Source of the DNA: Gilliamella sp. wkB108
Lineage (GTDB): Bacteria > Pseudomonadota > Gammaproteobacteria > Enterobacterales > Orbaceae
DNA: 64,000 nt
Direction of reading: 5' to 3'
Assembly: GCF_001690195.1 (NCBI RefSeq)
Contig: NZ_LZGM01000084.1
Coordinates: 1-64,000, forward strand
A program made the position numbers and the translations under genes. Below the pieces are notes generated by a model that saw only the letters and a program-made list of their open reading frames with translations, was not told where the DNA came from and ran no database searches. Positions 61,882 to 63,882 of the stretch are shown in pieces (the first letter of the stretch is position 1; the number at the start of each line of letters is the position of its first letter).

Positions 61882-63684
61882 TTAAGGTGTTACACAAGCA
61901 GCTCTCAGAGCAACACCAGTGGTATTAAAGGTAGAATCGTCATGATCAGATGAAAGATCTATATCCCCCAAATACGATCTAAGTATCAATCCGCGACCGT
62001 TATAACGTGATCCTCCCATTGCATTCTCTGCTATACTGTTACTCCAATAACCAATATAAACATCCCAATCACTATTGGCATAACCACTACACTGGTTTGA
62101 ACTAGTACCACTTTGATAACTGCGAATATCTTCGGTTTCCCAACTATTAGCTAAACATCCCCATTCATTATTTATTCCTCCCTGCCACTTTGACGGACTT
62201 TCTTGATAACTTAATTGACGACGGGAATTTTCGGAATCATTATCCCATAAGCCTTCTCCCCAACCGATCCATTCATCAAGCGTATTGACGTAATCATTCA
62301 TATCCGGCAACCGATAACCACTACTCAAACTTGCACAATATGACCTTGCTTCTGCTTGTGTATTTACTTTTACTTTAGGTTGCACTATATACCAACGCAT
62401 TATACGAAATTCGTATAACAACCGACTCTTACTACTATCTGCATATAACTTAAATGTAACCGGTTTGAAACTTTTATCTCCTACAGTGTTATACCGGGGT
62501 CCGTTTAAGGTTATCTTTAAACCCGGTTCTATTTCACCTAATGAATCACTTGAACCATAGTCGTTACCTGCTTCCCAAAGATTAGTGTTACCAGCAGTTA
62601 AAGTTAAACTTACATTACCTCCTTCTTCTGCAGTGACTTTATTACCATTAATTGCTACCACTTCAGATGGCGTAATACCTTTCATTAATAAATAAAAATG
62701 TAATCCATGTGATCCGGTACTTGGAAAGTTATTGTTATAGATTGATGATTCTCCAAAATAGTTACCACTATTAGCAGCATTTGATACCATATATCCCTTT
62801 GCAGCTGACCAAGTCATCCCGCCATTCCATGCATTAGCCAAATTAGGTTGCGCATAACATACCGATCCTGCTGCTTTATTTGGGGTGATATAATATTTAT
62901 GACTGCCACCAGTAAACTCACTAACACTGGGTATGCCATATTGGGTCTTTAACTGACCATCGGTTGAAGTAATGGTTAATATATAAGGTGCTTCACAAGG
63001 ATTTAATAGTGTATCTGGATTACTTTTAACAGTTGATGTAATATCAGCATAATAGTATCCCCCCCACCAATTTAGTTTTTTGCTTTCCCATTTTACCGTA
63101 ATACTTCCTGTACTAATGGCATCACTATCGCCATCTTCATCGCCAAAATAATTATATGGCGCTTTAACTAAATCATTCATATTAATAGTTGGATAATTAT
63201 TATTACCGGTATCAGGTAAAGGTACTGCCGTCTGTATTTTAGCAAACGTATCTGCAACATTGGGGGATTCTATCGGGTTGCTTTCACTTGATACATCATC
63301 GTCTGCTTTAATTATTTTACCATCCGATAAAGTGATACCTAACAGTGTACTGGTGTCATTTATCTTGGTTACGCCTTCGTCAAAAGTTATATAGGGTGAA
63401 CTGCCATGAATGATTTCAGCTGTTTTGGCCATTAATCCATAAGCACTATTAACAGTTAATGATAAACCTAAGCTAAGTAATACTGGTTTTAAGGGTAGAA
63501 ATATAAATCTTGATAAATTTACATTTGAATTTGAATTTGAATTTAATGCAGACTTGAGGGATTTTGCCGAATTGGTAACAACTAATTTAAAAAATTGGTG
63601 TCGCGTAATTATATATAAATTATGGCTGGCTGGCTGGCTGGCTGGCTGGCTGGCTGGCTGGCTGGCTGGCTGGCCTCTATACAA
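61882..63684 (-). CDS. Phase-variable secreted protein with C-type-lectin/FGE-like C-terminus, candidate DGR target
   Basis: The open frame gives 600 residues from a TTG at 63684. First come PASQ repeats from the tetranucleotide tract, then a long export signal (TRHQFFKLVVTNSAKSLKS, NSNSNSN, PVLLSLGLSLTVNSAYG), a beta-rich middle, and a C-terminal domain with SYCASLSSGYRLPDMNDY, GYWSN, and MGGSRYNG through ILRSYLG to ALRAACV. That last pattern is the GGSW...LRS...GFRLA-type ending of formylglycine-enzyme/C-type-lectin folds used by DGR target proteins and adhesins. The better start is the ATG at 63698 with AAAGGA eight bases upstream, but at 13 repeat copies that frame stops at 63609. The gene therefore looks phase-OFF here. 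Confidence 0.75.
   Translation of the reverse strand: MYRGQPASQPASQPASQPASHNLYIITRHQFFKLVVTNSAKSLKSALNSNSNSNVNLSRFIFLPLKPVLLSLGLSLTVNSAYGLMAKTAEIIHGSSPYITFDEGVTKINDTSTLLGITLSDGKIIKADDDVSSESNPIESPNVADTFAKIQTAVPLPDTGNNNYPTINMNDLVKAPYNYFGDEDGDSDAISTGSITVKWESKKLNWWGGYYYADITSTVKSNPDTLLNPCEAPYILTITSTDGQLKTQYGIPSVSEFTGGSHKYYITPNKAAGSVCYAQPNLANAWNGGMTWSAAKGYMVSNAANSGNYFGESSIYNNNFPSTGSHGLHFYLLMKGITPSEVVAINGNKVTAEEGGNVSLTLTAGNTNLWEAGNDYGSSDSLGEIEPGLKITLNGPRYNTVGDKSFKPVTFKLYADSSKSRLLYEFRIMRWYIVQPKVKVNTQAEARSYCASLSSGYRLPDMNDYVNTLDEWIGWGEGLWDNDSENSRRQLSYQESPSKWQGGINNEWGCLANSWETEDIRSYQSGTSSNQCSGYANSDWDVYIGYWSNSIAENAMGGSRYNGRGLILRSYLGDIDLSSDHDDSTFNTTGVALRAACVTP
63623..63674. repeat. Tetranucleotide repeat (TGGC)13, phase-variation tract
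   Basis: Thirteen perfect TGGC units (GCCA on the coding strand) lie inside the 5' end of the secreted-protein gene. Because four is not a multiple of three, each gain or loss shifts the frame: the ATG at 63698 joins the long frame at 11 or 14 copies and not at 12 or 13. Confidence 0.95.
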
Positions 63685-63882
63685 TTGTATTTTAACATAT
63701 TATTATTCCTTTGTCAGGGCATCCGATTGTTTTATTTTGAAAATTTATAATCGTTATATACAGTAGAGTATAAATAACTTACACAAATTTAGCAAATGCA
63801 ACTTTTAATGATTCGTGAAATTTTATAAAGTAACTGGTAAATGTCAGCTCTATATAAATCACCACAATATAGAGCTTAAAAT

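Follow-up and report, generated by a model that had tools for sequence, protein, structure and literature searches.

A GCCA repeat tract between start codon and main reading frame as a probable phase-variation switch in a multicopy gene family of Gilliamella

RESULTS

The repeat tract and the reading frames of the window gene

The analysed stretch of DNA (the window) comprises positions 1–64000 of contig C84 in the assembly of a Gilliamella genome (G000; 3.08 Mb in 129 contigs, 99.99% complete). The gene under study is the first of four consecutive members of one family on this contig (61.9–71.2 kb) and is read from the minus strand, where an AAAGGA Shine–Dalgarno-like site (63712–63707) is followed by an ATG (63698–63696), thirteen GCCA units (63623–63674; TGGC on the plus strand) and TAATTTATATATAA. 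TRF reported 13.0 perfect copies of the unit with a score of 104, and the only repeat of the window scoring higher has a 109-base unit; this second tandem repeat, of 2.2 copies, lies at 7956–8192. All ten overlapping (TGGC)4 matches of the window fall inside the 63623–63674 tract, and the motif was found 0 times in 100 dinucleotide-preserving shuffles of the window. Counted from the A of the ATG, the leader preceding the tract is 24 nt long and belongs to the conserved type MLKY(N/S)C(I/L)E. The ATG at 63696–63698 is most likely the start codon, as similar in-frame leaders occur in several family members that have no tract.

The frame set by this ATG ends after 29 codons at a TAA (63611–63609), and the resulting short frame (63609–63698) would represent the OFF state at 13 units. 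The long frame of the family protein (61882–63684 when taken from the in-frame TTG at 63684, which is not favoured as a start) is open from 63699 to 61885, that is, over 605 codons, 600 from the TTG and 597 from the tract; the third frame is short, 18 codons from the tract. Since the GCCA repeats are read as A-S-Q-P in all three frames, the tract never halts translation, and the number of units alone decides the outcome. One unit more or two fewer would align the ATG with the long frame. Thus, a perfect repeat with a unit length that is not a multiple of three stands between the start codon and the main frame, and the layout given by the original prediction, namely 13 perfect TGGC repeats between a well-placed ATG and the long frame, a TAA after 29 residues and restoration by the gain of one unit or the loss of two, was reproduced by TRF, by translation and by arithmetic. 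A hexanucleotide repeat of 3.7 units (63523–63544, minus strand, TRF) also lies within the long frame and is unable to shift it.

About 130 bases downstream of the window gene, a companion gene of 145 aa (61318–61755, minus strand) was found, for which there was no Pfam or PHROG match. Its relatives are present in 10 of 44 genomes, including all seven genomes with GCCA leaders versus three of the 28 other Gilliamella genomes (Fisher p 1.8e-5, the match in G013 being weak, E 6e-4). At least 19 of the 33 companion matches immediately follow a family member in the same orientation, and further companion-type genes are found at C84:63886–64407 and C84:66628–67146. The companion looks like the second gene of a switched unit. 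Convergent with this unit, the plus strand carries at 56115–61098 genes for an HlyD-type protein, a double ABC ATPase and two ABC-2 permeases, an ordinary efflux operon.

The predicted product and its family

In the long frame the tract is followed by a hydrophobic, signal-peptide-like stretch (63439–63510, ..FLPLKPVLLSLGLSLTVNSAYG), recognized by eye and aligned with a similar stretch in the paralogues, and by a mature part of 518 aa (61885–63438). The latter was modelled by AlphaFold2 with 66 relatives as a beta-rich structure (pLDDT 89.4). When the whole model was compared with the PDB by Foldseek, nothing reached E 0.001; fragments of intimin ranked sixth and seventh by E (0.0055 and 0.0065) with a probability of 0.96 and a TM to target of 0.43–0.44, the five matches above them having probabilities of 0.25 or less. 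When the C-terminal 173 residues (61885–62403, pLDDT 82.5) were compared alone, invasin (1cwv) came first with a probability of 0.99 and an E of 0.017, and the next hits, C-type lectins among them, had E-values of about 1 or more. In none of the fold comparisons with intimin or invasin did TM exceed 0.46, and all their E-values were above 0.001. Among 32 tips, Pfam Intimin_C was matched weakly in two (E 0.082), and a viral structure library held no structure matching at an E of 0.001 or lower.

As regards a surface anchor, no beta-barrel translocator was seen, and no lipoprotein cysteine was found by eye at the likely cleavage site ..NSAYG-LMAK. Lectin-tipped secreted protein is therefore a fair label for what the model predicts. 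The adhesin-like character assigned by the original prediction is weakly supported, at the level of the fold, by the C-terminal tip, which resembles invasin and intimin at E above 0.001; no anchor was found that would fix the protein to the surface, and surface adhesin would be a putative label.

The family profile matched 41 of 44 Orbaceae genomes, in four of five genera, and the 74 loci of relatives drawn from named genomes belong to Gilliamella (72), Frischella (1) and an 'Orbaceae bacterium' (1). The number of matches per genome is high in some Gilliamella relatives, a few matches being fragments (G010 43, G015 40, G027 38, G026 37, G004 35 and G018 20). Two split copies in G027 (C1:5918–7221 and C2:778682–779985) have identical scores and are perhaps an exact duplication, and in G026 a 1556-residue open frame (C1:1005531–1009682) unites several family-domain matches in one protein. 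Apart from chance-level matches, there was no informative Pfam or NCBIfam match in 12 members. The Pfam PT model of disordered repeats matched six of the 12 (best E 0.0038), a match that we attribute to the ASQP tract. The window protein had no PHROG match, and sequence searches of the PDB and of protein families with family members returned nothing usable.

GCCA tracts are confined to family leaders and occur in all phases

The profile detected 22 family matches in G000, some of which are pieces of one gene. Beside the four genes on C84, members are located on C36, C59, C78, C90, C83, C39, C109, C104, C96 and C92. Across the whole assembly, (TGGC)4 occurs 120 times, 88 forward and 32 reverse, while the reversed control gave 0. 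Eight tracts were found, with n = 16, 20, 27, 13, 15 and 15 on one strand and 17 and 21 on the other, each shortly after the start codon of a paralogue. A run of n units yields n-3 matches, and summed over these tracts this accounts exactly for the 88 and the 32 matches. All tracts of this kind in the assembly therefore sit in leaders of family members. A ninth member (C78:77591–78910, L268) carries (AGCA)22 instead of GCCA and is out of frame from the sole ATG found within 45 bases upstream. The conserved leader ATG is in frame in one of the eight GCCA genes only (n = 16, C84:71103–71166); in the n = 17 copy on C78 (C78a) a second ATG, lacking a ribosome site, falls in the long frame.

The leader and tract together were found at 24 loci in seven of 35 Gilliamella genomes, and all of these 24 genes but two (L134 and L137) have an AGG no more than 16 bases ahead of the leader ATG. 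For phase analysis, 1.5 kb flanks were used, so long frames were cut at about 505 aa, and three loci were dropped (L141, with a long frame of 66 aa, and L142 and L146, with less than 40 aa, L142 being at a contig end). Five of the remaining 21 genes are in frame, and seven and nine are in the other two phases (chi-square p 0.56), a split that random slippage would predict. The repeat number ranges from 4 to 36 across paralogues and species, with all phases represented, each species being represented by one genome. Because several paralogues are at contig ends, the assembled n of the longest tracts may be wrong. The leader and tract pattern was absent from viral contigs.

In a wider survey of the loci fetched, all repeat units with n >= 5 were considered, duplicates were removed and family members were recognized by profile, which left 41 genes. 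The script, which ignored stops between ATG and tract and whose 'short' class admits chance two-copy repeats, classified 13 of these long-tract genes as in frame, 27 as out of frame and one as having no nearby ATG. By eye, however, L081 is OFF (ATG-TGG-TCT-TAA), giving 12 of 41, and with only conserved leader ATGs accepted, L053 (n=17) and L079 also drop out, giving 10 of 41. The probability of 10 or fewer of 41 is 0.15 at one-third expected, and both counts would fit free slippage. A rule of exactly one ON gene per genome was refuted by G027 (3 of 11), G015 (2 of 9, 7-base tracts) and G005 (2 of 4 GCCA/AGCC tracts).

The ATG as the probable start codon

An in-frame ATG was found in 57 of 59 members with no detected tract, a tract being defined as >=4 units of 4 bases or >=3 units of 7 bases, with the ATG within 60 bases; 14 5′-truncated members and duplicate starts were left out of this count. 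Some of the tract-less leaders resemble the tract leader, such as MLKRICLEARQPSS (on C90), MLKHSQLGFTQPVNKL (on C36), MLRYPYLG and MFKYNYL, and other members start differently. MLKRICLEARQPSS and MLKHSQLGFTQPVNKL read as the tract leader minus the repeats.

The same positions can also be read as a promoter. CTGACA-N17-TAAAAT overlaps the ATG of the window gene, matching at 10 of 12 positions and with a TG before the second hexamer, and the 7-base leaders of related genomes show TTGAC(A/G)-N16-19-TANNNT across the ATG in every one of the 61 cases checked (36/36 in G010, 19/19 in G004 and 6/6 in G015, taken from L166–L204, L226–L254 and L206–L213, respectively), although these are paralogues and hence non-independent. 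On this basis the tract could lie in a 5′ untranslated region, TGnTAAAAT being an extended -10 element, with the repeats tuning transcription or mRNA stability. We regard this as unlikely. Without the ATG at 63698 the window gene has no long-frame ATG between the tract and the mature domain and would thus have no signal peptide, and further promoter-like sites occur upstream of the ATG, the region holding 16 in total compared with 13.8 in shuffles. Moreover, in several tract-less leaders codon changes such as TTGAGATAC for TTAAAATAC retain similar amino acids but destroy the -10-like hexamer, and residues kept while the hexamer is lost favour a start codon over a promoter spacer. In the 7-base leaders, the two elements may be superimposed, with the start codon inside a promoter. 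Alternatively, translation could begin at the TTG at 63684, which is in frame with the long ORF in the present phase, or at some other long-frame start, in which case the gene would be ON at 13 units and the ATG unused. This appears rather improbable: no Shine–Dalgarno-like site was seen by eye upstream of the TTG, which derives from the AAT/AGT-TGT codons that the conserved leader contains. The long frame of the n=20 copy meets a TAG two bases ahead of the tract and lacks an upstream start codon, and the copies on C36, C59 and C78 (C78b) are likewise devoid of a start in the long frame. The long frame is in the TTG phase in seven of the 21 usable genes, as by chance. Nevertheless, the in-frame TTG at 63684 or the second ATG of C78a may permit low expression in nominal 'OFF' phases.

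Selection on the family and divergence of the C-terminal tip

In all nine G000 paralogue pairs compared, pN was lower than pS. Neutral simulation at 0.1 substitutions/site preserved the open frame in no more than 1 of 1000 runs for each of four genes, as against 76–104 of 1000 at 0.03 substitutions/site; as about a tenth of unselected frames is still open at the lower divergence, the open-frame argument is weak for very recent copies. The copy on C59 and the one truncated at the contig end of C78 (C78b) agree in 99% of 879 coding columns, yet their tracts have 15 and 21 units, suggesting that the tract changes faster than its surroundings. Comparison of the three C84 genes other than the window gene revealed a DNA identity of 93–97% in the first three 150-column blocks and down to 61–69% in later blocks in two of the three pairs, with an amino-acid identity of 30–51% over the last 80 columns. 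By these alignments the trio is a mosaic with a diversified tip, and the C-terminal end matching invasin is its most variable part.

These data bear on two further explanations. The gene might be a decaying pseudogene, the tract merely marking where the frame broke, and seven of the eight G000 tract paralogues are indeed out of frame from the conserved ATG. Yet no long frame is broken, dN is lower than dS, stops are predicted by the neutral simulation at 0.1/site and the same cluster holds an in-frame relative with the same kind of tract (the n=16 gene mentioned above), which makes decay very improbable. The other explanation is that the tip owes its diversity to a diversity-generating retroelement (DGR), which the original prediction had mentioned conditionally as a source of sequence diversification. 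Targets of DGRs have a lectin-like variable C-terminus, and the fold of the tip, its variability among the three C84 paralogues and one weak Lcl_C match in 32 tips (E 0.011) fit such an origin. Against it, no RVT_1 domain was found in the 99.99% complete genome at E 0.001, while 3 of 14 control genomes were positive. A search for a template repeat recovered, as second copies of the tip DNA, only a C90 paralogue at 68–73% identity and short matches not exceeding about 40 bases. Differences involving A made up 0.64 of the total over the last 170 codons (0.59 over the final 80) and 0.67 before them, so there is no adenine bias. The family resembles DGR targets in its variable C-terminus with a predicted lectin-like fold, but no reverse transcriptase, template repeat or adenine-specific differences were found, and DGR diversification, hardly credible on these grounds, was rejected.

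Tracts of other unit lengths in relatives

At the same site, relatives carry units other than GCCA, namely ATCGGGC, GACAACA, CGCAACA, CCACGCAA, CACCAGA, CCAAGCA and AGCA. Octanucleotide tracts directly follow the ATG in G027, with CCACGCAA in n=18, 23 and 20 copies and ACGCAACA in n=17 (L257, L259, L260 and L285). Two of the tract scans skipped two-letter units and hence missed the AACACCA/AAACACC tracts of L277 and L284. The long tracts of G027 are in frame in 3 of 11 genes (15 5′ ends fetched of 38 matches).

A distinct picture was obtained for the branch with short 7-base tracts, which includes L166–L205 (G010), L226–L254 (G004) and L206–L213 with L277 (G015) and whose unit sequences differ between species; the short-tract counts include L254, L163 and L277. 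In G010 a 7-base tract was detected in 36 of the 40 5′ ends fetched (43 matches in the genome). The 34 three-unit genes and the one two-unit gene among them are out of frame, and a single four-unit gene is in frame. As the probability of 1 or fewer of 36 being in frame is 9e-6 if phase were random, the 7-base tracts of this genome are not in free phase. G004 has the tract in 19 of 29 fetched 5′ ends, one of which (L235) is in frame, through small base differences and not through an extra unit; three more distant members of this genome have no 7-base tract. Both in-frame genes among the nine of G015 have four units, and the seven with three units are out of frame, which also holds for all ten genes with three units that were fetched from G. 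apis NO3. Assuming conventional start codons, many three-unit members look locked OFF, and a putative default-OFF branch with short tracts remains. If the promoter-like element over the 7-base ATG is a real promoter, that ATG would not be transcribed from it. Against this, the ATG is in frame and similar residues recur in those leaders of the branch that have no tract (e.g., MQYNFRHQRWQTYVL in L111).

DISCUSSION

The tract is very probably a slipped-strand translational phase-variation switch, which in this assembly would be in its OFF position. According to this reading of the sequence data, translation would begin at the ATG at 63698 and cross the GCCA repeats, and it would proceed to the signal peptide and the extracytoplasmic protein of 518 residues only if the number of units phases the ATG with the long frame. 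With 13 units the two are out of phase, and so the gene would be OFF in the sequenced clone. The paralogues and relatives, with their phases, leaders and open frames observed directly in the assemblies, lend good support to the contingency-locus design that had been proposed for this gene. Gain and loss of units during replication, which we infer to occur in living cells, would flip the gene at random. With eight GCCA paralogues a population would come to contain many ON/OFF combinations of divergent lectin-tipped secreted variants. The proteins would presumably be secreted to the surface, where they may act in adhesion or in the evasion of bee immunity, phage or competitors.

The mechanism itself is already known. 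Opa proteins of Neisseria are beta-barrels, and the opa repeat lies near the 5′ end of the gene. As a multi-copy gene switched by a CTTCT pentanucleotide, opa has four copies expected in meningococcus and 11 or 12 in gonococcus (PMC5953494). The likeness lies in scattered divergent paralogues, each with a frame-shifting repeat and independently switched, the opa product being an outer-surface protein. Unlike opa, the Gilliamella family uses units of 4, 7 and 8 bases instead of 5, places the repeat ahead of the signal peptide in an added N-terminal extension, encodes an unrelated protein, belongs to an insect symbiont and has more tract copies in some genomes; Opa was absent from the Pfam matches (E 1) of 12 members. 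In Haemophilus influenzae, tetranucleotide tracts in ORFs are found at or just downstream of the start, with two exceptions, the unit being CCAA in hgp, which is present in one to four genes per genome, and AGCC in mod (PMC2651432). These genes resemble the window gene in having a tetranucleotide just after the start codon and a frameshift within the ORF, and the AGCC of mod is the GCCA unit in another register, but their products are a haem receptor or a methyltransferase. Intimins and invasins are described as having an N-terminal beta-barrel translocator domain (PMC3008723). The present family may share with them the fold of the C-terminal domain (1cwv; intimin-190), at E-values above 0.001, and differs in that neither an N-terminal beta-barrel domain nor a significant sequence match was found in the members and tips searched. 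No translocator Pfam domain was detected at E 1 in 12 members, and, judged by eye, the modelled beta-rich part leaves no room for a beta-barrel between signal peptide and tip.

The short 7-base tracts suggest, more tentatively, that Gilliamella holds most of its divergent lectin-tipped secreted proteins in silence, as a library from which the leader repeats release a few at a time and in which long 4-, 7- and 8-base tracts would flip freely while three-unit 7-base tracts hold dozens of genes OFF and rarely open one. We consider this possible but doubtful, the main doubt being the promoter-like element over the ATG of the 7-base leaders. If it is true, near-exclusive expression of a single variant would be achieved by rare switching alone, with no dedicated recombinase or silencing system.

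Searches of one open-access library on Gilliamella, Orbaceae and the honey bee gut yielded, among the papers listed, no report of such a family, host or scale; as far as searched, the family is undescribed, and its repertoire is unusually large and, it appears, partly default-OFF. Gilliamella, a genus of non-pathogenic bee gut symbionts, would possess a family-wide repeat-switched repertoire that outnumbers opa in some genomes and consists of proteins with no family name. Since members of the genus are culturable and can be introduced into microbiota-free bees, the drivers of switching, whether host immunity, phage, niche or competitors, would be testable in a natural symbiosis.
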